DNA of 64,000 nt from Inhella proteolytica (lineage in GTDB: Bacteria > Pseudomonadota > Gammaproteobacteria > Burkholderiales > Burkholderiaceae_C). Each line of letters begins with the position of its first letter. Position 1 is the first letter of the stretch. Below are positions 31,652 through 44,102 of this stretch, piece after piece. Location of the stretch: the NCBI RefSeq assembly GCF_016093275.1, contig NZ_JAEDAK010000004.1, positions 62,001-126,000 on the forward strand, read 5' to 3'. The notes under the pieces are model-generated. The model made no database searches, was not told the origin of the DNA, and worked only from the letters and a program-made list of their open reading frames with translations. The translations under genes were made by a program, and so were the position numbers.

Positions 31652-33127
31652 GTGAACCCCGCAGTCCTCCCCGCCCCCACCCTGCCGGCCGATCTGGACG
31701 GCGTGCTGCGCCTGGCCGCGCAGTCCATGTTCGAGCACTTTGCCGTGGCCGCCACCGGCATGATGCTGCTGGACCGCGAGCACCGCATCGTCTGGATCAG
31801 CGAGGGCTACAAGCACTTTCTGCCGGCCCTGGGCTTCACACATGAATCGGAGTTCGTCGGCCGCCGCGTCGAGGACGTGGTGCCCGGCACCCTGCTGGCC
31901 GAGGTCATCGACAGCGACCGCCCCATCCTCGTCGACCTGCTGACCAACCGCGCCGGCACCTTCGTGGTGAGCCGCCTGCCCCTGCACGACGCGCAGGGCC
32001 AGGTCATCGGCGCCATCGGCCTGGTGCTGGCCGACCAGACCAAGCTGCAGCCGGTGGTGCAGAAGTTCGCCCACCTGCAGCAGCAGCTGGACGACGCACG
32101 CCGCCAGCTGAGCGAGCAGCGCCGGCCCAAGTACACGATCAGCAGCTTCATCGGCGTGAGCCCGGCGGCGCAGGAGGTGAAGCGCCAGGCGCGCAAGGTG
32201 GCCGCGCTCGATTCGAGCGTGCTGCTGCTGGGCGAGACCGGCACCGGCAAGGAGCTGCTGGCCCATGCCATTCACGCCGCCAGCCCGCGCGCCAGCAAAC
32301 CCCTGGTGGGCCTGAACATCGCTGCCATCCCCGACACCTTGCTGGAGGCCGAGCTGTTCGGCGTGGCCGGCGGTGCCTTCACCGGCGCTGACCGCAAGGG
32401 CCGCGAGGGCAAGTTCGCCATCGCCGACGGCGGCACCCTGTTCCTGGACGAGATCGGCGACATGCCGCTGGCGCTGCAGAGCAAGCTGCTGCGCGTGCTG
32501 CAGGAGCAGGAGTTCGAGCCCCTGGGCTCCAACACCGTACGGCGCGTGGACCTGCGCGTCATCGCCGCCACCAGTCGCGACCTACCCTCGATGGTGGCGC
32601 GCAACGAGTTCCGTGCCGACCTGTACTACCGCCTGGCCGTGCTGCCGATCCGCGTGCCGCCGCTGCGCGAGCGCCGCGAAGACCTCGAAGCCCTGGCCGA
32701 GGCGCTGGGCGAGGACATCGCGCGCCGCTCCGGCATGCCGCAGCGCACGCTGGAGCCCGACGCCCTGGCCCTGCTGGCCGCGCAGCCCTGGCCCGGCAAC
32801 ATCCGCGAACTGCGCAATGTGCTGGAGCAGGCCAGCCTGATGAGCGATGCGCTGCGCCTGGAGGCGCGGCATTTCGCCGGCCTGCTTCCAGGCGGCACGG
32901 CCGCCGCTGCGGCGCCGGGTGCGCCCGCCCGCATCAGCGCCCCGGCGGTCGACGCCACCGATCCGGCCGCCGCCCTGCGCCCCCTGCCCGAGCAGATTGC
33001 CGAGCTGGAACGCCGCGCCATCGCCGCCGCCCTGGCCCACACCCAGGGCAACAAGGTGGCCACGGCCAAGCTGCTGCGCATCTCGCGCGCGGCCCTGTAC
33101 GAGAAGCTGGCGCTGTACGGACTCTGA
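31652..33127 (+). CDS. Sigma-54-dependent activator (PAS-AAA+-Fis)
   Basis: From a GTG at 31652 the product is 491 residues; a longer frame from 31562 is possible. Residues about 20-145 form a PAS sensor domain (FAVAATGMMLLDREHRIVWIS), about 165-390 the AAA+ domain with Walker A GETGTGKE (about 194), the sigma-54 contact loop GAFTGA (about 241) and Walker B LFLDEIGDMP, and the last 40 a Fis-type HTH (NKVATAKLLRISRAALYEKL). It melts promoters bound by sigma-54 RNA polymerase on sensing a ligand. A palindrome and a -24/-12 promoter lie directly downstream, before livK, so its target is the next operon. Confidence 0.93.
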   Translation: MNPAVLPAPTLPADLDGVLRLAAQSMFEHFAVAATGMMLLDREHRIVWISEGYKHFLPALGFTHESEFVGRRVEDVVPGTLLAEVIDSDRPILVDLLTNRAGTFVVSRLPLHDAQGQVIGAIGLVLADQTKLQPVVQKFAHLQQQLDDARRQLSEQRRPKYTISSFIGVSPAAQEVKRQARKVAALDSSVLLLGETGTGKELLAHAIHAASPRASKPLVGLNIAAIPDTLLEAELFGVAGGAFTGADRKGREGKFAIADGGTLFLDEIGDMPLALQSKLLRVLQEQEFEPLGSNTVRRVDLRVIAATSRDLPSMVARNEFRADLYYRLAVLPIRVPPLRERREDLEALAEALGEDIARRSGMPQRTLEPDALALLAAQPWPGNIRELRNVLEQASLMSDALRLEARHFAGLLPGGTAAAAAPGAPARISAPAVDATDPAAALRPLPEQIAELERRAIAAALAHTQGNKVATAKLLRISRAALYEKLALYGL

Positions 33128-33155
33128 GCAGCTGTCCGGTTTCCGGACAGCTGCT
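33127..33155. promoter_or_regulatory. Perfect palindrome, candidate upstream activator site
   Basis: Two 13-bp arms (AGCAGCTGTCCGG and its exact complement) flank TTT. The palindrome starts on the last base of the activator stop codon and lies about 105 bp before the -24/-12 promoter, the distance expected for a sigma-54 activator site. It has no T-run, so a terminator role is less likely, though both could apply. Confidence 0.65.
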
Positions 33156-33245
33156 GTTGGCGCGTTCACCGGCCCTGTACGGAATCCGGGCAATCCAGCG
33201 CCTGATGGGCCATGGCCGCCCGGCAAAGTCCGGGTGAACCCGCAA

Positions 33246-33261
33246 TGGCACGGGGCTTGCA
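33246..33261 (+). promoter_or_regulatory. Sigma-54 (-24/-12) promoter of the liv-type operon
   Basis: The sequence TGGCACG-GGGC-TTGCA matches the consensus TGGCACG-N4-TTGCW at all fixed positions. The -12 element ends 54 bases before the livK ATG. Together with the upstream activator gene this is strong evidence for sigma-54 control. Confidence 0.88.
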
Positions 33262-33315
33262 CCCTTTGCGCCCAGCGCCGGCCCTGTCCCCGTGGGGCCG
33301 CCTTCAGGAGACCCC

Positions 33316-34509
33316 ATGCTGAACCGCCGCTCTCTGGCCCATACCGCGGCTGCCGCCGCCCTGCTTGCCCTCAGCTGCGCCGCCCAGGCCCAGGGCAAGG
33401 ACATCCGCATCGCCCATGTCTACAGCAAGAGCGGCCCGCTGGAGGCCTATGGCAAACAGACGCACACCGGCCTGCTGCTGGGCCTGCAGTACGCCACCGG
33501 CGGCACGATGACCGTGGCGGGCCGCAAGATCGTCGTGCTGGAGAAGGACGACCAGGGCAAGCCCGACGTGGGCAAGAACCTGCTGGCCGCCGCCTACGCG
33601 GACGACAAGGTGGACCTGGCCGTTGGCCCCACCAGCTCTTCGGTGGCCCTGGCCCTGCTACCGGTGGCCGAGGAGGCCGGCAAGATCCTGCTGGTGGAGC
33701 CCGCCGTGGCCGACTCCATCACCGGCGAGAAGTGGAACCCCTACATCTTCCGCACCGGCCGCAACAGCTCGCAGGACGCCATCGCCAACGCCGTGGCGCT
33801 GGACAAGCCCGGCACCCACATCGCCACCCTGGCGCAGGACTACGCCTTCGGCCGCGACGGCGTGAAGGCCTTCCGCGAGGCGCTCAAGACCGCCAAGCTG
33901 GTGCACGAGGAATACCTGCCCACCAGCACCACCGACTTCACCGCCGGTGCGCAGCGTTTGATCGACAAGCTCAAGGGCCTGCCGGGCCGCAAGATCGTCT
34001 TCATCCTCTGGGCCGGCGCGGGCAACCCCTTCAAGATCGCCGACCTGGACCTGAAGCGCCACGGCATCGAGATCGCCACCGGCGGCAACATCCTGCCGGC
34101 CATGACGGCATACAAAGCTTTCCCCGGCATGGAGGGCGCGGCCTACTACTACTTCGGCATGCCCAAGAACCCGGCCAACGAGTGGCTGGTGGCCAACCAC
34201 TACAAGCAGTTCAAGACCCCGCCCGACATGTTCACCGCCGGCGGCATGACGGCCGGCATCGCCATCGTCGAGGCGCTGAAAAAGACCGGCGGCGACAGCA
34301 AGACCGCCAAGCTGCAGGCCGCCATGAAGGGCATGAAGTTCCAGAGTCCGAAGGGCGAGATGTGGTTCCGCGCCGAGGACCACCAGGCCATGCAGTCGAT
34401 GTTCCATTTCAAGATCAAGGTGGACCCGGCGTTCGAGTGGGGCGTGCCGGAGCTGGTGCGGGAGATCAAGCCGGCGGACATGAGCATCCCGATCCGCAAC
34501 AAGTCCTGA
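33316..34509 (+). CDS. HAAT-family ABC transporter substrate-binding protein (LivK-like)
   Basis: The product is 397 residues with a signal peptide (LAHTAAAAALLALSCAAQAQ). The Peripla_BP_6 fold is plain in IRIAHVYSKSGPLEAYGKQTHTGLLLGL, DLAVGPTSSSVALALLP and AQDYAFGRDGVKAFREAL. The family binds branched-chain amino acids, amides, urea or short organic acids; the gene context here (3-hydroxybutyrate dehydrogenase and esterases) points to hydroxybutyrate-like acids. The ribosome site AGGAG is seven bases before the ATG, and the sigma-54 promoter is just upstream. Confidence 0.9.
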   Translation: MLNRRSLAHTAAAAALLALSCAAQAQGKDIRIAHVYSKSGPLEAYGKQTHTGLLLGLQYATGGTMTVAGRKIVVLEKDDQGKPDVGKNLLAAAYADDKVDLAVGPTSSSVALALLPVAEEAGKILLVEPAVADSITGEKWNPYIFRTGRNSSQDAIANAVALDKPGTHIATLAQDYAFGRDGVKAFREALKTAKLVHEEYLPTSTTDFTAGAQRLIDKLKGLPGRKIVFILWAGAGNPFKIADLDLKRHGIEIATGGNILPAMTAYKAFPGMEGAAYYYFGMPKNPANEWLVANHYKQFKTPPDMFTAGGMTAGIAIVEALKKTGGDSKTAKLQAAMKGMKFQSPKGEMWFRAEDHQAMQSMFHFKIKVDPAFEWGVPELVREIKPADMSIPIRNKS

Positions 34510-34516
34510 TCGCTCG

Positions 34517-34630
34517 GCTACTGCGCGACCACAGGCCGTCGTTGCGGGTCCTCCCGTGGATCCTCACGTACAGGAAGTACGTTCCGGTCCACGGGTCCCC
34601 CCGCGTCTAGTCCCGCGGCCGCTCGCTACG
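34517..34630. repeat. Long imperfect hairpin with CGTAC-AGGAA-GTACG core
   Basis: This occupies the gap between livK and livG. The core CGTAC-AGGAA-GTACG (34567-34581) is extended by GCGGG..CCCGTGGATC..A on the left and T..GGTCCACGGG..CCCGC on the right. It may attenuate transcription between the binding protein and the other transporter genes, so that livK is made in excess, as is usual in binding-protein operons. Confidence 0.6.
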
Positions 34631-34661
34631 CCTCGAACTCTGGAAACCCGAATTCACCAAC

Positions 34662-35405
34662 GTGCTCGAAACCCAAGACCTGACGATCCGCTTCGGCGGC
34701 CATGTGGCCGTCGACCGCGTGTCCTGCAGCTTCCAGCCCGGCACGCTGACGGCCATCGTCGGCCCCAACGGCGCGGGCAAGACGACCTACTTCAACCTCA
34801 TCAGCGGGCAGCTGCCCGCCAGTGGCGGGCGGGTGCTCTTGAACGGTGAGGACCTGACGCGGCTGAGCGCGCCGCAGCGCACGCGCCGGGGGCTGGGGCG
34901 GGCGTTTCAGCTGACGCAGCTGTTCCCGCACCTCACCGTGCTGGAGAACGTGCGCTTGGCGGTGCAGGCGCGTTGCGGGATGGGGCTGCGGCTGTTCTCG
35001 GTGTGGCTGCAGCATCGTTCGCTGATCGACGAATCCATGGCCTTGCTGGAGCGCGTGCGTTTGGCCGCGCGTGCTGACAGCCTGGCGGCGAGCTTGCCGC
35101 ATGGGGATCAGCGCAAGCTGGAAGTGGCGCTGTTGATGGCGCTGCAGCCCAAGGTCTATCTGTTCGATGAACCCACCGCGGGCATGAGCGTGGATGAGGT
35201 GCCGGTGGTGCTGGATCTGATTCGCGATCTGAAGCGCGAGGGGCGTCACACCATCCTTTTGGTGGAACACAAGATGGATGTGGTGCGTGAGCTGGCGGAT
35301 CGGATCGTGGTGTTGCACCAGGGGGCTTTGGTCGCGGATGGCGAGCCTGCTTCTGTGATGGCTTCGGCTGTGGTGCAGAACGCGTATCTTGGAGTGGCAG
35401 CGTGA
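34662..35405 (+). CDS. HAAT ABC transporter ATP-binding protein (LivG-like)
   Basis: The start is GTG at 34662; 247 residues follow. Walker A is IVGPNGAGKTTYFN, the signature is the LivG variant LPHGDQRKLEVALLM instead of LSGGQ, Walker B is VYLFDEPTAGMS, and the switch His is in LLVEHKMDVV. It powers uptake together with the LivF-like partner. A 565-bp repeat region separates it from livF, unlike most such operons. Local GC use near its 3' end is slightly less biased than in livK. Confidence 0.93.
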   Translation: MLETQDLTIRFGGHVAVDRVSCSFQPGTLTAIVGPNGAGKTTYFNLISGQLPASGGRVLLNGEDLTRLSAPQRTRRGLGRAFQLTQLFPHLTVLENVRLAVQARCGMGLRLFSVWLQHRSLIDESMALLERVRLAARADSLAASLPHGDQRKLEVALLMALQPKVYLFDEPTAGMSVDEVPVVLDLIRDLKREGRHTILLVEHKMDVVRELADRIVVLHQGALVADGEPASVMASAVVQNAYLGVAA

Positions 35406-35428
35406 GCTCGGTTGCTTGTTGCTCGTTG

Positions 35429-35541
35429 CAGCCCGCAGGGGCTTCACCCCTGCACCCGACCCGCATTTCTTTGCTGCGCCAAAGAAACGCGGGGCAAAGA
35501 AAGGCGCCAATGCGCACAGTCGCCCTAGGGGCGAACTGTGA
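35429..35541 (-). repeat. Three-hairpin intergenic element, copy A
   Basis: Read on the minus strand the order is a hairpin CAGTTCGCCCC/GGGCGACTG (35514-35541), then CATTGGCGCCTTTCTTTG, a hairpin CCCGCGTTTCTTTG/CAAAGAAATGCGGG and a hairpin GCAGGGG-TGAAG-CCCCTGC. It is the mirror image of copy B at 35837-35950, with changes on both sides of the stems. Confidence 0.7.
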
Positions 35542-35836
35542 TGGCGGTGCTTGGGCTCACACTGACACGAGCCCTCCTCTGACTTCGACGGTCAGGACGA
35601 CGAAGGCGCCCGGAGTACCGGTCGTCCCGGGCAGCGAGGACCATGGCCTCCGAGCTCCGAAGAACACACCCCCAACCAGCGCCCTGGGACACCCAGTTGC
35701 TCGTTGGGGGTCCGTTCATCGCAGAGAGCCCTTGATGGTTTGCAGTGGTCTAGACGGCCGGTACTCCGGCCAGCTTAGCGGGCAGGTTTTCGCAGTCCCA
35801 GGAGGGGTGTGGGAGCCATGTGAGCCGGACGTGCAG
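35542..35836. other. Unique spacer between the two inverted elements in the livG-livF gap
   Basis: About 295 bases without a convincing gene. Short frames exist on both strands but have neither ribosome sites nor protein-like composition. I see no transposase or target duplication. A short CCGGTACTCCGG palindrome lies near 35759. This spacer might be the loop of a large inverted-repeat structure formed by copies A and B. Confidence 0.5.
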
Positions 35837-35950
35837 TCGCGCGCCGCCTTAGGCGGCGTGCGTGCATTGGCGCCTTTCTTTGCCCCGCGTTTCTTTGGCA
35901 AGACAAAGAAATGCGGGTCGGGGTGTGGGGTTGAAGACCCCACGGGCTCT
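35837..35950 (+). repeat. Three-hairpin intergenic element, copy B
   Basis: On the + strand: hairpin GCGCCGCC-TTA-GGCGGCG (about 35840-35859), CATTGGCGCCTTTCTTTG, hairpin CCCGCGTTTCTTTG-GCAAGA-CAAAGAAATGCGGG, and hairpin GTGGGGT-TGAAG-ACCCCAC. Copy A has GCAGGGG/CCCCTGC in the last stem, so pairing is kept while bases change. It ends about 20 bp before livF. Confidence 0.72.
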
Positions 35951-35970
35951 CACTTCAAAGCACAAGCCCA

Positions 35971-36699
35971 ATGAGCCTGCTCAAACTCCAAGGCGTCCAC
36001 ACCCACATCGGCGCGTACCACATCCTCCACGGCGTCGACCTGGAGGTGCCCGAGGGCCAAGTGACCATGCTGCTGGGCCGCAATGGCGCCGGCAAGACCA
36101 CCACACTGCGCACCATCATGGGCCTGTGGCCGCACAGCCAGGGAACGATCGAATTCGCCGGCGGCAGGCACAAGCAAAGCACCCCCGAGATCGCCCAGCA
36201 AGGCATCGCCTATGTGCCCGAATCCATGGGCATCTTCAGCGACCTCAGCGTGGCCGAAAACTTGCTGCTCGCCGCAAGGCAAGCCAAGCGTTTGCAGGAC
36301 CTGGATGACGCACGTCTGACCTGGCTGTTCGGCCTCTTCCCCGCGCTGAAGACCTTCTGGCAATACCCCGCCGGCAAGCTCAGCGGTGGGCAAAAGCAGA
36401 TGGTCGCCATTGCCCGCGCACTGATCGAGCCGCGCCGCCTGCTGCTGATCGACGAGCCCAGCAAGGGCCTGGCGCCGGCCATCGTGCAGAACCTCATCGA
36501 GGCGCTGGGTGAACTGAAGAAGCAACAGACCACCGTGCTGCTGGTGGAGCAGAACTTCGCCATGGCCAAGGCCCTGGGCGACCGCGTGGCCGTGATGGAC
36601 GACGGCCGCGTGGTGCACACCGGGGCCATGCAGGAATTGGCCGAGAACGAAGTACTTCAGCAACGCCTGCTCGGCCTCTCACTCGGAGCGCATCAATGA
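35971..36699 (+). CDS. HAAT ABC transporter ATP-binding protein (LivF-like)
   Basis: The product is 242 residues. Walker A is LLGRNGAGKTTTLRT, the signature LSGGQKQMVAIARAL, Walker B LLLIDEPSKGLAP and the switch His is replaced by Gln in LLVEQNFAMA, as is usual for LivF. It forms the second nucleotide-binding subunit with the LivG-like protein. The stop overlaps the livH ATG by four bases. Confidence 0.94.
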   Translation: MSLLKLQGVHTHIGAYHILHGVDLEVPEGQVTMLLGRNGAGKTTTLRTIMGLWPHSQGTIEFAGGRHKQSTPEIAQQGIAYVPESMGIFSDLSVAENLLLAARQAKRLQDLDDARLTWLFGLFPALKTFWQYPAGKLSGGQKQMVAIARALIEPRRLLLIDEPSKGLAPAIVQNLIEALGELKKQQTTVLLVEQNFAMAKALGDRVAVMDDGRVVHTGAMQELAENEVLQQRLLGLSLGAHQ

Positions 36700-37712
36700 C
36701 CACCACCACCGCGCCGGCCGCCCTGCCACGCGAGCGCTTTGACATCGCGCCGCTGGCCCTGCTCGCCGGCCTGGCCCTGCTGGCCCTGCCGCTGATCGGC
36801 AGCCCCAGCTCCTGGGCCACGCTGACGCTCGCCGGGCTGGCCATGGGTCTGATCGTCTTCATCATGGCCTCGGGCCTGACGCTGGTGTTCGGCCTGATGG
36901 ACGTCTTGAACTTCGGCCACGGCCTCTTCATCGCCCTGGGCGCCTTCATGGCCACCACGGTGCTCTCCAGCTTGAGCGGCCTGGTCCACAGCCCGGATCT
37001 GGGGGCCAATCTGCTCGCCGTGGGCGCGGCCTGCCTGGTGGGCATGGGCGTGGCCGGCGCGGTGGGCCTGGCCTTTGAGCGCGTGCTGGTGCGGCCCGTC
37101 TACGGCCTGCACCTGAAGCAGATCCTCATCACCATGGGCGGCATGATCGTCGGCGAGGAGCTGCTGAAGATGCAGTACGGCGCGCAGCTCGTGCCCATCA
37201 CCCCGCCCGAGGGCCTGCGCGGTGCGCTGCTGTTCGGTGATGTGGCGCTGGAGCGCTTCCGCCTGCTGGCCATGGTCGTCGGTCTGACCGTGCTGGTGGG
37301 CCTGCTGTGGCTGCTGAACCGCACCAAGCTGGGCCTGCTGATCCGCGCCGGCGTGCAGGACCGCGAGATGGTGGAAAGCCTGGGCTACCCGATCCGCCGG
37401 CTGTTCATCGGCACCTTCGTCGCCGGCTCGGCGCTGGCGGGCCTGGGCGGCGTGCTCTGGGGCCTGTACCAGCAGGGCGTGACGCCGCAGATCGGCGCGC
37501 AGCTCAATGTGCTGATCTTCATCGTCATCATCATTGGCGGCCTGGGCTCCACCTTCGGCAGCTTCGTGGGTGCGCTGCTGGTGGGCCTGGTGGCCAACTA
37601 CACCGGCTTCCTGGCGCCCAAGCTGGCGCTGTTCTCCAACATCGCCTTGATGGTGGCGGTGCTGCTGTGGCGGCCCGAGGGCCTGTACCCGGTGGCGCGA
37701 AGGGCCGGCTGA
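36696..37712 (+). CDS. HAAT ABC transporter permease (LivH-like)
   Basis: The product is 338 residues with about eight or nine membrane helices. The LivH motifs GLALGLIVFIMASGLTLVFGLMDVLNFGHG-like (start near residue 45), a GLLIRAGVQDREMVESLGYPI cytosolic coupling loop and GGLGSTFGSFVGALLVGL are present. It forms half of the inner-membrane channel. It overlaps livF by four bases and shares its last base with the livM start. Confidence 0.94.
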   Translation: MTTTTAPAALPRERFDIAPLALLAGLALLALPLIGSPSSWATLTLAGLAMGLIVFIMASGLTLVFGLMDVLNFGHGLFIALGAFMATTVLSSLSGLVHSPDLGANLLAVGAACLVGMGVAGAVGLAFERVLVRPVYGLHLKQILITMGGMIVGEELLKMQYGAQLVPITPPEGLRGALLFGDVALERFRLLAMVVGLTVLVGLLWLLNRTKLGLLIRAGVQDREMVESLGYPIRRLFIGTFVAGSALAGLGGVLWGLYQQGVTPQIGAQLNVLIFIVIIIGGLGSTFGSFVGALLVGLVANYTGFLAPKLALFSNIALMVAVLLWRPEGLYPVARRAG

Positions 37713-38773
37713 TGGTCAAGACCCTGCTTTCGCACGATCTGCCGCGCAGCCGCCTGCTGGCCGCGCTCTTGATCGTCACCGTGCTGGGCCTCTTGGCCAC
37801 GCCCTTCCTGTTCCCCGGCACCAAGCCGATGAACGTGGCCGCCAAGACCCTGGTGTTCATCGTGCTGGTGGCCAGCTACGACCTGCTGCTGGGCTACACC
37901 GGCATCGTCAGCTTTGCGCACACGCTGTTCTTCGGCATCGGCGCCTACGGGGTGGCGATTGCGAGCCATCGCATGGGCCCGGGCTGGGACGCGGTGCTGC
38001 TCGGCGCGGGCGCGGCGCTGGGGGCCAGCCTGCTGCTCTCGCTGGTGATCGGCCTGGCCTCGCTGCGCGTCAAGGCGATCTTCTTCGCCATGATCACGCT
38101 GGCCGTGGCCTCGGCCTTTCTCACGCTGGCCTCGCAACTCAGCGAGTTCACCGGCGGCGAGGACGGCCTGAACTTCAAGGTGCCCGAGCTGCTGCGCCCG
38201 GCCACGGTGTTCCTGGATGAACCCCTGTTCGGTGTGGAGGTGGACGGCCGCCTGCTCAGCTACTACGGCCTGTGCCTGGCGGTGGCCGTGCTGGTGCTCT
38301 TGATGCTGCGCATCGTCAACTCGCCCTTCGGCCGCGTGCTGCAGGCCATCCGCGAGAACAGCTTCCGCGCCGAGGCCATCGGCTACCGCACAGTGGTGTA
38401 CCGCACGCTCTCGAACGTGCTGGCCGCGCTGTTCGCTTGCGCATCCGGCGTGCTGCTGGCGCTGTGGCTGCGCTATGTGGGGCCGGAGACGGCGATGTCC
38501 TTCGAGATCATGCTGGACATCCTGCTGATCGTCGTCATCGGCGGCATGGGCACGGTCTACGGCGCGGTCATCGGCTCGGTGCTGTTCGTGCTGGCGCAGA
38601 ACTACCTGCAGGACCTGATGCGCCTGGCGCAGGGGCCGCTGGCGGACGTGCCGGTGCTGGGCGCCATCACCTCGCCCGACCGCTGGCTGCTGTGGCTGGG
38701 CATGTTGTTCATCCTCTCTGTCTATCACTTCCCCACCGGCATCGTCGGAAAACTGAGATCACGCAAGCCATGA
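37712..38773 (+). CDS. HAAT ABC transporter permease (LivM-like)
   Basis: The product is 353 residues with about nine or ten helices. Motifs of LivM are ASYDLLLGYTGIVSFAHTLFFGIGAYG, the coupling loop GRVLQAIRENSFRAEAIGY and the closing IGGMGTVYGAVIGSVLF. It pairs with the LivH-like permease. ATG overlaps the livH stop as TGATG, and its stop overlaps the ATG of the following hydrolase by four bases, so that hydrolase is physically part of the transporter operon. Confidence 0.94.
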   Translation: MVKTLLSHDLPRSRLLAALLIVTVLGLLATPFLFPGTKPMNVAAKTLVFIVLVASYDLLLGYTGIVSFAHTLFFGIGAYGVAIASHRMGPGWDAVLLGAGAALGASLLLSLVIGLASLRVKAIFFAMITLAVASAFLTLASQLSEFTGGEDGLNFKVPELLRPATVFLDEPLFGVEVDGRLLSYYGLCLAVAVLVLLMLRIVNSPFGRVLQAIRENSFRAEAIGYRTVVYRTLSNVLAALFACASGVLLALWLRYVGPETAMSFEIMLDILLIVVIGGMGTVYGAVIGSVLFVLAQNYLQDLMRLAQGPLADVPVLGAITSPDRWLLWLGMLFILSVYHFPTGIVGKLRSRKP

Positions 38774-39606
38774 ACTCGCGCTACCTGCGCTGCCTGGGCC
38801 GTGAGCTGCACTTCATGGACTGGGGTGACCCGGCCAACCCCGAGGTCGTGGTGGCCTGGCATGGCCTGGCCCGCACGGGGCGGGACATGGACGAGCTGGC
38901 CGCGCAACTGGCGCCGCGCTTTCGCGTGATCTGCCCGGACACGATTGGCCGCGGCCTGTCGCAATGGAGCCCGCAGCCGCGCGACGAGTACTGCCTGGAC
39001 TTCTACGCCGAACTGGCCACCGCGCTGCTGGACCAGCTGGGCGTGGTGCAGACGCATTGGGTCGGCACCTCGATGGGCGGCGCCATCGGCCTCGTGGCCG
39101 CGGCCGGGCCGCTGCAGGGGCGCATCCGCCGCCTGGTGCTGAACGACGTCGGCCCCGAGCTGGCCGAGCCCGCGCTGGCGCGCATCCGCGCCTATGCCGG
39201 CCAACCGCCCGCCTTCGCCACGCTCACCGAGCTGGAGGGCTACTTCCGACAGATCTACGCGCCCTACGGCTGGTTGAGCGACACGCAATGGCGGCACCTG
39301 ACCGAGACCTCGGTGCGCCGCCTGCCCGACGGCCGCGTGACCCCGCATTACGACCCCGCGATGGTGGAGCAGTTCACCCACCACCCGGACGACTACCGCC
39401 GCTGGGCCGAGTGGGACCGCCTGAGCCTGCCGGTGCTGGCGCTGCGCGGCGTCGATTCCGACCTGCTGACGCCCGAGGTCTTCGAGGCCATGCGCGTGCG
39501 CGGCCCGCGCGCGCTGGGCGTGGTCATCGAAGGCTGCGGCCACGCGCCCGCGCTGAACACCCCCGAGCAGCTCGGCCTGATCGAGCGCTTTCTGATCGCC
39601 CACTGA
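38770..39606 (+). CDS. Alpha/beta hydrolase, candidate 3-hydroxybutyrate-oligomer esterase
   Basis: The product is 278 residues with no signal peptide. Oxyanion region VVAWHGLARTGRDMDELA, nucleophile Ser in WVGTSMGGAIGL, Asp in LRGVDSDLLTPE and His in EGCGHAPALN make a full triad. It is translationally coupled to livM and followed after 13 bp by 3-hydroxybutyrate dehydrogenase; the natural reading is that it splits imported hydroxybutyrate esters in the cytosol. The hydrolase at 43260-44102 is a clear relative (same WHGL/LHGL-TRxGRD opening, GTSxGG, RGxxSDLL and GHAP blocks). Confidence 0.82.
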   Translation: MNSRYLRCLGRELHFMDWGDPANPEVVVAWHGLARTGRDMDELAAQLAPRFRVICPDTIGRGLSQWSPQPRDEYCLDFYAELATALLDQLGVVQTHWVGTSMGGAIGLVAAAGPLQGRIRRLVLNDVGPELAEPALARIRAYAGQPPAFATLTELEGYFRQIYAPYGWLSDTQWRHLTETSVRRLPDGRVTPHYDPAMVEQFTHHPDDYRRWAEWDRLSLPVLALRGVDSDLLTPEVFEAMRVRGPRALGVVIEGCGHAPALNTPEQLGLIERFLIAH

Positions 39607-39619
39607 ATCTGGAGTTCCC

Positions 39620-40405
39620 ATGTCCCTGAACGGCCGCACGGCGCTGGTCACCGGTTCCACGCAAGGCATTGGCCTGGCCATTGCCGAAGCCCTGGCATGC
39701 GCCGGCGCGCAGGTGGTGCTGCACGGCATCGAAGCCGCCGAGCAAGGCCAGGCCGTGGCCGCGCGCCTGCAGGAGCAGACCGGCGCGCGCTGCGCCTACG
39801 TGCAGGCCGACCTGGCCGACGAAACCGCCGCCGCGGGCCTGGTGGCCGCCGCCGCGGCGGCGCTGGCGCCGATCGACATCCTGGTCAACAACGCCGGCAT
39901 CCAGCACACCTGCCCGATCGCCGAGTTCCCCGCCGCGCGCTGGAACGCCATCCTGGCCATCAACCTCAGTAGCGCCTTCCACACCATGAAAGCCGCCCTC
40001 CCCGGCATGCGTGCGCGCGGCTGGGGTCGCATCGTCAACATCGCCTCCGTGCACGGCCTGGTGGCCTCCGTCAACAAGAGCGCCTACCTGGCCGCCAAGC
40101 ATGGCCTGGTGGGCCTGAGCAAGGGTGTGGCGCTGGAGACGGCGGCTGAGGGCATCACCGTGAACTGCATCTGCCCGGGCTGGACGGACACCGCGCTGAT
40201 CCAACCCCAGATCGAGGCCCGCGCAGCAGCCTTCGGCGGCGACCGCCAGGCCGGCATCCGCGAGCTGCTGCGCGAGAAGCAGCCCAACCTCACGCTGCTG
40301 CCGCCCAGCCACATCGGCGAGGTGGCGGTGTTCCTGTGCGGGCCGGCGGCGGCGGGGATCACGGGGGTGGCGCTGCCGGTGGATGGGGGGTGGACGGCGC
40401 AGTAG
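39620..40405 (+). CDS. bdhA: 3-hydroxybutyrate dehydrogenase (SDR family)
   Basis: The product is 261 residues. NAD site TGSTQGIG, NNAG and the SDR triad Ser in NIASVHG with Tyr-x3-Lys in YLAAKHG are intact. The segment LLREKQPNLTLLPPSHIGEVAVFLCG and the C-terminal VALPVDGGWTAQ are typical of D-3-hydroxybutyrate dehydrogenases, which oxidise 3-hydroxybutyrate to acetoacetate. It ends the sigma-54-driven operon and is the best clue to the transported substrate. Confidence 0.88.
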   Translation: MSLNGRTALVTGSTQGIGLAIAEALACAGAQVVLHGIEAAEQGQAVAARLQEQTGARCAYVQADLADETAAAGLVAAAAAALAPIDILVNNAGIQHTCPIAEFPAARWNAILAINLSSAFHTMKAALPGMRARGWGRIVNIASVHGLVASVNKSAYLAAKHGLVGLSKGVALETAAEGITVNCICPGWTDTALIQPQIEARAAAFGGDRQAGIRELLREKQPNLTLLPPSHIGEVAVFLCGPAAAGITGVALPVDGGWTAQ

Positions 40406-40530
40406 GGCTTGCTGTCCACCGCTTCTTGAGCGCCTGCAGGGGCTTCACCCGACGCGCCGCTTTCACCTGCTGACCGCTGGCGGTTCGGCTGTTCGGCTGT
40501 TCGGCAGCCTCCCCTATGCCCAGCCGAGGA
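40406..40530. other. Gap after bdhA, no gene
   Basis: The stretch holds a piece of the short GGGGCTTCACCC motif that is also inside copy A (35440-35452), and TTCGGCTG-type short repeats near 40484-40508. I see no ribosome site or convincing frame, and no clear terminator. Confidence 0.4.
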
Positions 40531-40536
40531 GCACAG

Positions 40537-40645
40537 AAGAGCGGGCCCGCGCGCGTGAGCGCGCCTCGTGAACTGACTTGGCCCAACTGTCTGAACGGAG
40601 CGAACGCAGTGAGCGAAGTGAGTTTTGGGCCTGGGCCCGCTCTTC
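40537..40645. repeat. Branched inverted repeat with 13-bp perfect outer stem
   Basis: The outer arms GAAGAGCGGGCCC (40537-40549) and its exact complement (40633-40645) enclose a CGCGCGTGAGCGCGC hairpin and an inner hairpin with GGCCCAACT and AGTTTTGGGCC arms. The whole could fold as a branched structure in DNA or RNA. Confidence 0.65.
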
Positions 40646-40667
40646 GCGCACCGCAGGGAACCCCCGG

Positions 40668-40770
40668 CGCAGCCGGGGGCGCCGGCATCGGGGTCGCCTT
40701 TCTTGGCCTACCTTCTTTGGCGAAGCAAAGAAGGTAGGTCGGCTGCCGGGCCGAGACCCGGCGGGGTCTT
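40668..40770 (+). repeat. Three-hairpin intergenic element, copy C
   Basis: The order matches copy B: hairpin CCCCCGGC-GCA-GCCGGGGG, then CGCCTTTCTTGG, hairpin CCTACCTTCTTTG-GCGAAG-CAAAGAAGGTAGG, and hairpin GCCGGG-CCGAGA-CCCGGC. Stem positions differ from copies A and B on both sides, so pairing is retained. Confidence 0.7.
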
Positions 40771-40821
40771 TCGCACAACGCATGCGGCTCGTCTGTCCAC
40801 AAATCAGTCAGCGCCTGAAAA

Positions 40822-40851
40822 GCAGACAACCAGCCTCGCGCACCTGTCTGC
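40822..40851. promoter_or_regulatory. Inverted repeat, weak candidate activator site for the TonB-receptor promoter
   Basis: Arms GCAGACA and TGTCTGC are 16 bases apart, about 135 bp before the second -24/-12 promoter. The sequence is not clearly the same as the palindrome at 33127-33155, so common regulation rests on position only. Confidence 0.3.
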
Positions 40852-40971
40852 CCAGCAAACAAGCAATCACTCAGGCCCTTGCCTGCCGGCCTCCCGGTGA
40901 GCGTTCTGAAGGTCTCCAACACGCTTCCCGCTGATGGTTTTCCCGCGCTTTTAGGCACCGCACTCCAACTG

Positions 40972-40985
40972 GGCACGCCGCTTGC
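40972..40985 (+). promoter_or_regulatory. Sigma-54 (-24/-12) promoter of the TonB receptor
   Basis: GGCACG-CCGC-TTGC has the essential GG and GC pairs at exact spacing; only the first T of the consensus TGGCACG is replaced (by G). It lies 91 bases before the receptor ATG. It would place the receptor under the same sigma factor as the transporter operon. Confidence 0.7.
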
Positions 40986-41076
40986 GCTTGTCCACCCAGC
41001 GCCCAGCCGATCGACATCAGAAACCGGCGGGCGACCCGACACCGCCCGACCCCAACCGAACCCCGGAGACCACCCC

Positions 41077-43251
41077 ATGCGACCGATGACCCTGCTGCGC
41101 CTGCAACCCCTGGCCCTGGCCGCCGCCACCCTGCTGGGCACCCCCGCCCTGGCCCAGACCGCGCCGGCCACCGATGAAGCCACGCAGCTGGAGAAGGTCA
41201 CCGTCACGGCGCGCAAGCGCGAGGAGACGCTGCAGGACGTGCCCGTGGCCGTGACGGCGCTCACGGCCCAGAGCCTGGACCGCCTGGCGGTGCGCAACCT
41301 TGGCGACCTGCAAGGCCAGGTGCCCAGCCTGACCATCTACGCCGCACGCGGCAGCAACAGCACGCTCACCACCTTCATCCGCGGCGTCGGCCAGGCCGAC
41401 CCGCTGTGGGGCGTGGACCCGGGCGTGGGCATCTACCTGGACGATGTGTACATGGCCCGCCCGCAGGGTGCGCTGCTGGAGGTGTTCGACATCGAGCGCA
41501 TCGAGGTGCTGCGTGGCCCGCAGGGCACGCTGTACGGCAAGAACACGATTGGCGGCGCGGTGAAGTACGTATCGAAGGCGCTGGGCACCGCCACCAGCGG
41601 CAACGTGGCGCTCACCGTGGGCAACCACGGCCTGCTGCAGGCCAAGGGCATGCTGGGCGGCGCCACCGAGGACGGCCAGTTCCGTGCCCGCCTGGCCCTG
41701 GCCAAGAGCGACCGCGACGGCTACGGCAAGAACCTCACCGATGGGTCCGACGTGAGCAACCAGGACACCGGTGCGGCGCGCATCCAGGCCGGCTGGTTCC
41801 CTGAAGGCCTGCCGCTGAACGTCCAGGTCAGCGCCGACCGCACCCGTGACGACTCCAACATGCGCGGCTTCCAGCGCATGGCGGTGAACCGCTTCGACCC
41901 CGCCGCCACGCCCGCCAGCACCGGCCGCTACGACATCGCCAGCGGCATGCCGAACAAGAACTACACCCACGCCGGCGGCCACGCCATCACGCTGGGCTTT
42001 GATCTGGGCCAGGACTGGAGCGGCAAGCTCATCAGCGCCTACCGCAGCTCCGACACCGACACCTCGATCGACTTCGACGGCCTGCCCAACAAGATCGCCG
42101 ACGTGCGCGCGCTCTACAGCGACAGCTCGCGCAGCCACGAGCTGCAGCTTGCGCGCGCCGGCGGCGGCGTGTTCGGTCTCTACCGCTTCGAGGGCGAGGC
42201 CGGCGGTCAGGTGCTGAACAACTTCTTCAACCTGAGCTTTGGCGACACCCGTGGCCAGGTCTACACGAAGAGCAATGCCGCCTATGTGGACTGGGAGTGG
42301 GAGCTGAGCGAGGCGCTGAACCTCTCCACCGGCCTGCGCTACACCAGCGAGGAAAAGCGCGCCGTGGTGCTGAACCGCGCCTACAAGGACGCCACCTTCT
42401 CGGTGCCCATCGCCACCGTGTCCGACTTCGACAAGACCCGCAAGGTCAGCAACACCTCGCCCAAGCTCTCGCTGGGCTACGAGCTGAGCAAGGACACCAA
42501 GTTCTACGCCACCGCCTCGCGCGGCTTCAAGAGCGGCGGCTACAACATCCGCGCCAACGTCACCGCCGTGCCCTCGTCCAGCAAGCCCTTCGAGGACGAA
42601 ACGCTCGACTCCTTCGAGCTGGGCGCCAAGCTGCGCCTGGACGAAGGCCGGCTCGAACTGAACAGCGCCGTCTTCCACAACAAGTACAAAAACGTTCAGC
42701 TCTCGGTCTTCACCAGCTTCACCCAGGCCAACGGCCAGCCCGGCTTCTTCGGCGACTTCACCAACGCCGGCCGCGCCACGGTCAATGGCCTGGAGCTGGA
42801 GATGATCTGGCGCCCGACGCGCAACCTCACGCTGCGCGGCAACGCCTCGGTCATCGACGCGAAGTACGACGAGTACCTGGACCGCGGCGTCAACGTGGCT
42901 GCCCAGAAGAAGTTCAGCAACACGCCCAAGACCAGCGGCGCGCTGGACGTGGAGTACCGCCTGCCCTTCGCCCTGGGCGGCGAACTGCGCGCCCGCGCCG
43001 GCGTGAGCTACCGCAGCAAGGTCTACCCGACCACGGACCTGAGCGAGGTCATCGCCCAGCCCGGCTACAGCCTGTGGTCCGCCGGCCTGATCTGGGAGCG
43101 CGACCGCCACTGGACCTTCGCGCTGCAAGGCACCAACCTGGGCGACAAGGCCTACCGCACCGATGGCTACAACATCGCCGCGCTGGGCGTGCTGGACGGC
43201 TTCTACGGCGCGCCGCGCCAGGTCAGCCTGAGCGCTTCGTACCGCTTCTGA
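41077..43251 (+). CDS. TonB-dependent outer-membrane receptor
   Basis: The product is 724 residues with a signal peptide ending TPALAQ. A TonB-box-like start (QLEKVTVTARKREETLQDVP) leads into the plug domain (about residues 45-165: LQGQVPSLTIYA, IRGVGQ, IERIEVLRGPQGTLYGKNTIGGAV), followed by the 22-strand barrel ending in Phe (VSLSASYRF). It imports a ligand across the outer membrane with energy from TonB. The sequence type is the catabolic rather than siderophore class. Promoter and neighbours suggest an ester or oligomer of hydroxybutyrate as ligand. Confidence 0.93.
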   Translation: MRPMTLLRLQPLALAAATLLGTPALAQTAPATDEATQLEKVTVTARKREETLQDVPVAVTALTAQSLDRLAVRNLGDLQGQVPSLTIYAARGSNSTLTTFIRGVGQADPLWGVDPGVGIYLDDVYMARPQGALLEVFDIERIEVLRGPQGTLYGKNTIGGAVKYVSKALGTATSGNVALTVGNHGLLQAKGMLGGATEDGQFRARLALAKSDRDGYGKNLTDGSDVSNQDTGAARIQAGWFPEGLPLNVQVSADRTRDDSNMRGFQRMAVNRFDPAATPASTGRYDIASGMPNKNYTHAGGHAITLGFDLGQDWSGKLISAYRSSDTDTSIDFDGLPNKIADVRALYSDSSRSHELQLARAGGGVFGLYRFEGEAGGQVLNNFFNLSFGDTRGQVYTKSNAAYVDWEWELSEALNLSTGLRYTSEEKRAVVLNRAYKDATFSVPIATVSDFDKTRKVSNTSPKLSLGYELSKDTKFYATASRGFKSGGYNIRANVTAVPSSSKPFEDETLDSFELGAKLRLDEGRLELNSAVFHNKYKNVQLSVFTSFTQANGQPGFFGDFTNAGRATVNGLELEMIWRPTRNLTLRGNASVIDAKYDEYLDRGVNVAAQKKFSNTPKTSGALDVEYRLPFALGGELRARAGVSYRSKVYPTTDLSEVIAQPGYSLWSAGLIWERDRHWTFALQGTNLGDKAYRTDGYNIAALGVLDGFYGAPRQVSLSASYRF

Positions 43252-43259
43252 GAAGGCGC

Positions 43260-44102
43260 ATGGACTGGGTGCACCGCTTCTTCCGCAGCGACGACGGCCT
43301 GCGCCTGCACGTCACGGACTGGCCCGGCCCGCGCGCCGATGCCCCCGTGCTGCTGTGCCTGCACGGCCTGACGCGCAACGGCCGCGACTTCGAGCGCCTG
43401 GCGGCGCACCTGTCCCCGCGCTTTCGCCTGCTCTGCCCGGACCAGCGCGGCCGCGGCCTCTCGGCGCACGACCCCGACCCGAGCCGCTACCGACCGGACC
43501 GCTACGTGGCCGACATGCTGACCCTGCTGGACCAGGCGGCGATCGCGCAGGTGCAGGTGATCGGCACCTCGCTGGGCGGGATGATGGGCGTGATGCTGGC
43601 CGCCATGCAGCCGCAGCGCATCCAGGCCCTGGTACTGAACGATGTGGGGCCGGTGCTGGAGCCCGCGGGCCTGGCGCGCATTGCCGGCTATGTCGGCCAC
43701 CAGGCCGCGGCCACCCACCTGGCCGAGGCGGCGGCGCGCACCGCCGCCGTGCAGGCCCCGGTGTTCCCGGACTTCGGGCCGCAGGACTGGCAGCGCATGG
43801 TGCTGGAAACGCACCGCATCGAGGACGGCCAGTGGCTGCCCGACTACGACCCCGCCATCGCCCAGGGCCTGGCCAGCGGCAGCGCGGTGCCACCGCTGTG
43901 GCCGCTGTTCGAAGCCGCGGCTGCCACGCCGATGCTGCTGCTGCGCGGGGCGGAGTCGGACCTGCTGAGCGCCGGCACGGTGGCGGAGATGCAGGCCCGG
44001 CTGCCGAAGCTGCAGGCCGTGGAGGTGCCGAGGCGCGGGCATGCGCCGACGCTGATGGAGCCGAAAGCCTTGCAGGCGCTGGAGGGCTTCCTGCGGGCTT
44101 GA
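43260..44102 (+). CDS. Alpha/beta hydrolase, second candidate oligomer esterase
   Basis: The product is 280 residues without a signal peptide. The triad is Ser in VIGTSLGGMMGV, Asp in LRGAESDLLSA and His in RRGHAPTLME; the oxyanion loop is LLCLHGLTRNGRDFERLA and CPDQRGRGLS follows. It is similar throughout to the hydrolase at 38770-39606, so the two are probably paralogues with different chain-length preference. It starts 8 bp after the receptor stop and shares its transcript. Confidence 0.82.
   Translation: MDWVHRFFRSDDGLRLHVTDWPGPRADAPVLLCLHGLTRNGRDFERLAAHLSPRFRLLCPDQRGRGLSAHDPDPSRYRPDRYVADMLTLLDQAAIAQVQVIGTSLGGMMGVMLAAMQPQRIQALVLNDVGPVLEPAGLARIAGYVGHQAAATHLAEAAARTAAVQAPVFPDFGPQDWQRMVLETHRIEDGQWLPDYDPAIAQGLASGSAVPPLWPLFEAAAATPMLLLRGAESDLLSAGTVAEMQARLPKLQAVEVPRRGHAPTLMEPKALQALEGFLRA

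Follow-up and report, generated by a model that had tools for sequence, protein, structure and literature searches.

The window analysed here, a 64,000-nucleotide stretch of the Inhella proteolytica genome (contig NZ_JAEDAK010000004.1, positions 62,001 to 126,000), carries at 31652-44102 ten intact genes, all on the plus strand, which were delimited from open reading frames and domain searches and which probably form a regulon by which the cell scavenges oligomers of 3-hydroxybutyrate (3HB) set free from polyhydroxybutyrate (PHB). A first-pass annotation of the same DNA had proposed import and breakdown of 3HB or its oligomers; comparison with related genomes supports this through the PHB-degrading genes beside the importer, the sigma-54 promoter type and activator site shared by importer and receptor genes, and a receptor-linked hydrolase. 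The activator, complete HAAT transporter, dehydrogenase, TonB receptor, and second hydrolase that it named are all present as open frames at 31652-44102, although it counted nine genes where there are ten:

31652..33127, plus strand: sigma-54-dependent activator (bacterial enhancer-binding protein, bEBP), AAA+ domain with GETGTGKE and GAFTGA, Fis-type helix-turn-helix
33316..34509, plus strand: livK-like periplasmic binding protein (PF13458)
34662..35405, plus strand: livG-like ATPase, GTG start
35971..36699, plus strand: livF-like ATPase, from domain searches
36696..37712, plus strand: livH-like permease, from domain searches
37712..38773, plus strand: livM-like permease, from domain searches
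38770..39606, plus strand: hydrolase 1, alpha/beta hydrolase with serine motif GTSMG, a proposed cytoplasmic 3HB-oligomer hydrolase
39620..40405, plus strand: bdh, D-3-hydroxybutyrate dehydrogenase (TIGR01963)
41077..43251, plus strand: TonB-dependent outer-membrane receptor, plug PF07715 and barrel PF00593
43260..44102, plus strand: hydrolase 2, alpha/beta hydrolase with serine motif GTSLG, of the receptor-linked clade

The activator start codon, a GTG, is uncertain, and no N-terminal sensor domain was found for this protein in Pfam at 1e-3. By Pfam the importer is a complete HAAT type (Peripla_BP_6 binding protein, two ABC ATPases, and two BPD_transp_2 permeases); the receptor has the plug, the barrel, and, reading its N-terminus by eye, the signal peptide of a TonB-dependent receptor. 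Hydrolase 1 starts inside the livM stop codon (38770/38773), a 4-base ATGA overlap in keeping with the coupling to livM proposed earlier, and only 8 bases separate the stop of the receptor gene from the start of hydrolase 2. The two hydrolases are paralogues, as had also been proposed (39% identity over 271 amino acids, E 1e-46 or better). Judged by conservation, the locus is built of two modules, activator-importer-hydrolase 1 and dehydrogenase-receptor-hydrolase 2, with bdh belonging to the receptor module as it does in loci L048, L121, and L126. The closest named relative found, Inhella gelatinilytica, has a hydrolase 1 with 92% identity and an identical gene order (locus L060).

The company that the importer keeps in relatives points to PHB products rather than amino acids as its cargo. 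An orthologue of hydrolase 1, defined by 58% identity or more, occurred in 83 of the 150 genomes of the family sample, and livKGFHM lay beside it in 26 of 29 loci with long flanks, which were picked and not random (exceptions L058, L059, and L067). The importer block of relatives also holds a 702-729 amino acid protein, three examples of which match the 3HB-oligomer hydrolase family PF10605 (982-1044 bits), and a 509-556 amino acid protein, two examples of which match the type-2 short-chain-length polyhydroxyalkanoate (PHA) depolymerase family of NCBIfam (375-379 bits, cut-off 280). With the weak cases G074, G086, and G139 omitted, 42 of 45 PF10605 genomes were used to examine co-location: hydrolase 1 co-occurs in 33 of these 42, and 28 of those carry the two genes on one strand with at most 1,435 bp between them. 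Homologues of the L062 depolymerase were found in 31 genomes, 25 of them with hydrolase 1, and in 20 of the 25 the pair lies within 10 kb on the same strand, at distances of no more than 7.6 kb. With a PF10605 protein and a PHB depolymerase homologue as its neighbours, the importer is likely to carry PHB fragments.

The window could instead encode a conventional transporter of branched-chain amino acids or urea, the enzymes beside it being there by chance. The best hidden Markov model families do bear those names, and the window binding protein keeps Ser79 and Glu226 of E. coli LivJ. This seems very improbable, however, because all five transporter proteins fall below the curated cut-offs of amino-acid and urea families (livK scores 62 bits against 477), because PHB-degrading genes are conserved neighbours, and because the LivJ-like ligand site is altered: of Ser79, Thr102, Tyr202, and Glu226, which we take to be the amino-acid-binding residues of LivJ, Thr102 is replaced by Val and Tyr202 by Ala or Pro, both in the window protein and in the three relatives with which it was compared. 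The importer has the same complete set as HAAT/LIV ABC transporters, a binding protein, two ATPases, and two permeases, but differs from them in its conserved polyester-degrading neighbours and in those two ligand-site residues. The solved binding-protein structures closest to the livK product are 3n0x and 3nnd; no published ligand was found for them in passages of PMC3223731, which name neither entry, and a search on a presumed locus tag of 3n0x gave nothing.

In several loci a chemoreceptor gene lies between the activator gene and livK, or beside them. The one at L042 (12274-13923) has a single Cache domain (PF17200 and PF00015 in Pfam), and tblastn gave further matches at L046, L047, L051, L052, L054, L062, and L064. 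This protein is a candidate sensor for 3HB or its oligomers.

The enzymes of the locus fit the same substrate. The bdh product scores 312.3 bits with TIGR01963 (cut-off 307.05), as expected of a D-3-hydroxybutyrate dehydrogenase (BDH), and Q95, S143, H145, K153, Y156, K160, Q197, and W258, presumably the substrate-binding and catalytic residues of BDH, are all present. Neither hydrolase has a signal peptide when inspected by eye, both keep the G-x-S-x-G motif and a C-terminal GHAP, and neither matches PF10605. A tree of 59 hydrolase sequences has three groups, with long separating branches (about 0.4 to 1.7) and a warning from the tool about some joins. The importer-linked group has 39 rows (support 98/84), which a plasmid enzyme joins at 100/99; the bdh-linked group (96/91) comprises nine rows and a further two whose genomes gave no bdh match; and six rows make up the receptor-linked group (99/99), which two enzymes of another family join at 100/99 on long branches. 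The deeper order of this tree and the other-family join to the receptor-linked group need care. Among the matches listed, 53 of 66 paralogues have bdh as an opposite-strand neighbour (66 paralogue rows compared with 57 hand-picked bdh rows), and 12 of the remaining 13 are in genomes without a bdh match.

The I. proteolytica genome itself has, at L088 (C43:80271-81937), a second hydrolase (42%) and a second bdh (59-60%) arranged divergently; this pair is common in family genomes.

PMC3430594 and PMC11767486 assign C. necator a 3HB-oligomer hydrolase, PhaY2 (H16_A1335), with a homologue in Azohydromonas lata encoded by an 870-bp alpha/beta hydrolase gene. Like the Cupriavidus necator PhaY2 so described, hydrolases 1 and 2 are single-domain alpha/beta hydrolases of about 280-290 amino acids with the serine motif, they are kin to the bdh-linked clade, and the window's paralogue group sits beside bdh; unlike it, they form separate clades tied to importer and receptor, PhaY2 being compared by description and not by sequence. 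We infer that the bdh-linked clade corresponds to PhaY2 and that all three hydrolase groups cut 3HB oligomers. The PhaY1/PF10605 family would act at the same pathway step and adjoins hydrolase 1 in 28 genomes, but it differs from the window enzymes, which, like their genome as a whole, have no PF10605 match.

These enzymes also allow an account in which oligomers never enter the cell: the ABC transporter would bring in 3HB monomer, or free hydroxy acids generally, and the cytoplasmic hydrolases would act in the turnover of PHB inside the cell or on some other ester. The PF10605 hydrolase beside the importer in many relatives would, if secreted, already yield monomer, and the bdh-linked paralogue, away from any importer, fits an intracellular role. 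Such an account nevertheless looks unlikely, since a monomer importer needs no dedicated esterase, and hydrolase 1 overlaps livM in the window and adjoins the importer in nearly all long-flank loci; moreover, the separate hydrolase-bdh pair at L088 could serve intracellular turnover.

Regulatory sites link the importer to the receptor. The window has the elements of a sigma-54 regulon, namely an activator with GAFTGA, a -24/-12 promoter, and an upstream palindromic site at a typical distance:

33133..33149, no strand assigned: palindromic activator site TGTCCGGTTTCCGGACA, 113 bp upstream of the -24 element, third best in 64 kb
33176..33192, no strand assigned: activator site TGTACGGAATCCGGGCA, 70 bp upstream of the -24 element, best in 64 kb
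33246..33261, plus strand: sigma-54 promoter 1, TGGCACGGGGCTTGCA, TGGCAC-N5-TTGC
40794..40810, no strand assigned: activator site TGTCCACAAATCAGTCA, the weaker of two upstream of the second promoter
40812..40828, no strand assigned: activator site CGCCTGAAAAGCAGACA, second best in 64 kb
40971..40986, plus strand: sigma-54 promoter 2, GGGCACGCCGCTTGCG, one mismatch

The two -24/-12 promoters noted in the first-pass annotation hold up: that at 33246 is the sole mismatch-free match to the sigma-54 pattern in 64 kb, that at 40971 has one mismatch, and such sites recur upstream of livK and of the receptor gene in other loci. Weak matches alone mean nothing, because the scan at up to two mismatches gave 87 matches against 113.6 expected in the 64-kb window, which is below chance. 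On a 12-point score, six window sites, counted over both strands, reached at least 10, both promoters included. A score of at least 10 occurred upstream of livK in 22 of 30 loci, compared with 3.1% of random stretches, and upstream of the receptor gene in 7 of 12 loci (0 of 3 distant ones); for the control genes the counts were 1 of 20 (activator) and 0 of 4 (bdh). Eleven further receptor loci gave 7 of 11 for the receptor and 6 of 7 for livK. By length and gene identities L060, in the first set, and L120, in the further eleven, are apparently one contig, and the two never enter one count. This conservation upstream of livK and the receptor gene makes the two promoters more than chance occurrences.

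The activator palindrome was recognised in other loci only in its degenerate form, a first strict search having found it in the window alone. A scan with the window's own palindrome gave a match at the L062 livK gene that started the training set; the final pattern, consensus TGTCTGAAATTCAGACA, was trained on 30 livK upstream regions with the window left out. Its top three sites in the 64-kb window (33176, 40812, and 33133) are all just upstream of the two sigma-54 promoters; TGTCCACAAATCAGTCA and CGCCTGAAAAGCAGACA precede the second -24 element by about 160-180 bp, and TGTCCGGTTTCCGGACA also forms a strong hairpin. At the 5% background threshold livK gave 31 of 32, but 30 of these 32 regions are training rows, and the livK count hence has no value as a test. 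What does test the pattern at this threshold is the window livK, which has the site, together with the receptors (14 of 18, the L064 receptor being left out because its upstream region is cut off), and the controls (activator 1 of 26, livG 0 of 33, hydrolase 1 0 of 33, bdh 0 of 8, and livF 0 of 32). The random stretches that set the thresholds were drawn from the same loci, real sites included, which makes the thresholds stricter. From palindrome to -24 element the distance was 67-192 bp in 28 livK upstream regions, and such spacing is typical of enhancers for bEBP-class activators. Four of seven receptor genes unlinked from the importer in the stretch read keep the palindrome (L045, L123, L124, and L126), so the link between receptor and importer is partly regulatory and not merely positional. 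Receptor and importer probably belong to one regulon.

Receptor genes are sparse. Searches found them in 9 of 150 and 20 of 399 family genomes, and relatives at 39-40% identity in 3 of 299 other genomes of the order sample; as these searches scored 2 to 7 candidates per genome, absence means 'not found'. Thirteen of the 20 receptor genes are beside activator and importer, three are accompanied by bdh and hydrolase 2 alone (in one case on a 9-kb contig), and one by hydrolase 2 alone; hydrolase 2 is directly 3' of the receptor gene in 9 of 20. Neighbours not conserved together would have refuted the first-pass proposal, and the comparison did not show this: the importer-hydrolase 1 block is kept across relatives. 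All ten genes were seen joined in only 4 of the 20 receptor-bearing genomes (the window, L040, L120, and L122), all of this genus, and elsewhere the two modules are separable. Within the genus, no receptor match was found in G149, and G653 has the second module only, on a short contig. Of the three distant order members, two have the receptor gene, a gene for a hydrolase grouping with hydrolase 2, and livKGFHM in succession, and the third has receptor and importer. These three loci indicate that receptor and importer, in two cases with the hydrolase, stay together at 38% receptor identity, and a receptor-linked hydrolase 2, or a hydrolase of its clade, occurs in two families. No receptor relative turned up when viral contigs were scanned with six peptide patterns.

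A receptor that takes up an iron chelator or another nutrient, as a neighbour with no part in 3HB use, would agree with the closest matches of the protein among solved structures and in NCBIfam, most of which are receptors for siderophores, colicins, and haem, and with a palindrome that is weak or missing upstream of some receptor genes. We judge this quite unlikely: the receptor shares the palindrome and sigma-54 promoter with the importer, the palindrome being kept at those four unlinked loci; receptor, bdh, and hydrolase 2 travel as a module (L048, L121, and L126); and the ten genes include no iron-uptake or siderophore-synthesis domain apart from the receptor's own family. Uptake of organic substrates by TonB receptors has a precedent in a receptor for a lignin-derived aromatic, reportedly named DdvT. 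Such a receptor is the subject of PMC6874591; it resembles the window receptor in serving an organic catabolic substrate and differs in substrate class, polyester oligomers being proposed here.

Receptor genomes also differ from other hydrolase-1 genomes in their degradative enzymes. PF10605 was not found in any of the nine receptor genomes of the 150-genome sample, whereas it is present in 34 of the 74 other hydrolase-1 genomes (Fisher test, p = 0.009, uncorrected for ancestry and counting the weak genomes G074, G086, and G139 as positive, of which only G139 has hydrolase 1). None of the 24 genomes with a depolymerase match of at least 53% identity is a receptor genome; weaker matches occur in the I. 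proteolytica genome (37%) and in G021 (34%), the former a 326-residue protein with a secreted-looking N-terminus. The lack of PF10605 matches in receptor genomes suggests uptake of whole oligomers, and the pattern can be read as two styles: digestion outside and import of small units, or import of oligomers and digestion inside. A bolder version, which we put forward tentatively and think somewhat doubtful, is that receptor and HAAT importer make up a two-membrane 'polyester utilisation locus', in which whole 3HB oligomers are cut only in the cytoplasm and nothing is lost to neighbours, and that receptor species gave up the PF10605 hydrolase and the importer-linked depolymerase and scavenge the fragments of others in the manner of selfish glycan users.

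Several observations weigh against a 3HB-oligomer regulon with its own receptor. Dimers and trimers should pass general porins, so that the receptor is not strictly needed. Three of the 20 receptor genes have no marker gene in the stretch read, and plasmid-borne receptor relatives at 34-39% adjoin other hydrolases, amidohydrolase or MFS genes (five of seven records opened), which means that specificity for PHB does not extend to the wider group of receptors. With the threshold tightened to 1%, the palindrome count drops to 3 of 18 receptors and 19 of 32 livK genes, and even at 5% it was not found at three of the seven unlinked receptors (L048, L049, and L121). The genome's own depolymerase candidate scores 272.9, just under the NCBIfam cut-off of 280, and PF10605 was not detected in this genome. 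Nor was the palindrome found at a held-out alphaproteobacterial livK gene (L102), at the livK or receptor genes of the distant clusters L086 and L087, or at the three oligomer-hydrolase genes examined (L059, L097, and L098), and the regulon claim is therefore limited to the window's family. The distant cluster L085 has one receptor-upstream palindrome just over threshold (6.9 against 5.8) without a sigma-54 site, and a detached depolymerase gene (L096) has a palindrome score of 8.1 and no sigma-54 site.

Four alphaproteobacterial plasmid clusters (L103-L106) count on the same side, for they pair the same HAAT importer with a different alpha/beta hydrolase and with acyl-coenzyme A (acyl-CoA) genes; the annotations there are TetR, enoyl-CoA hydratase, AMP-binding ligase, and MaoC-type dehydratase (Pfam checked for one), and a CoA-based route for (R)-3-hydroxyacids is possible there. 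Such enzymes fit longer or more varied 3-hydroxyacids, and the real substrates in the window might likewise be broader (R)-3-hydroxyalkanoates or mixed polyester oligomers and not mainly 3HB. That we consider unlikely, since in this lineage C4 units are indicated by the BDH family and by the short-chain-length depolymerase and 3HB-oligomer hydrolase families. Another alphaproteobacterial plasmid, that of Mariluticola halotolerans, speaks for the main reading, as the window's combination recurs on it: a sigma-54 regulator and 3-hydroxybutyrate dehydrogenase, an importer made up of a binding protein with two ATPases and two permeases, and a hydrolase 51% identical to hydrolase 1.

If 3HB oligomers are the main substrate, the activator would sense a 3HB-related signal, bind a palindrome close to TGTCTGAAATTCAGACA at the sites marked out by conservation, and fire the two sigma-54 promoters. 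The TonB receptor, to judge from the shared promoter and activator sites, the receptor-linked hydrolase, and the linkage to bdh, would move scarce oligomers across the outer membrane; the HAAT-type ABC transporter, given its depolymerase and oligomer-hydrolase neighbours, would import them, and probably monomer too, across the inner membrane. The two cytoplasmic hydrolases, as kin of the bdh-linked, PhaY2-like group, would cut them to (R)-3HB, which BDH, on its family score and active-site residues, would oxidise to acetoacetate.

To our knowledge, the entry of soluble PHB products into cells is poorly described. Among the matches listed from the open-access literature, no title or opening of an abstract concerned the transport of 3HB oligomers by an ABC or TonB system, the bulk of the subscription literature lying outside that scope; if confirmed, an entry route for polyester pieces through the outer membrane would be new. 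PHB is both a natural storage polymer and a commercial bioplastic. The proposal, if true, identifies an importer, a receptor in the outer membrane, and their common switch; it also supplies a DNA signature by which the regulon can be recognised in genome sequences, and it divides PHB users into two kinds, some completing digestion outside the cell and others importing whole oligomers.

The transport operon of this strain is interrupted by an interspersed element:

35408..35970, no strand assigned: near-palindromic repeat, 563 bp, between livG and livF

The livG-livF spacing is about 8 bp in the I. gelatinilytica locus and about 110 bp in the G021 locus. The element occurs at 24 places of at least 250 bp and 85-100% identity in its own genome, window copy included, or in 71 rows once reverse and short matches are counted; within the operon it may affect livFHM expression. 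A second, different repeat family (about 290 bp) is represented between bdh and the receptor promoter, at about 40480-40775; elsewhere in the genome it gives another 40 matching rows, with identities of up to 96%.

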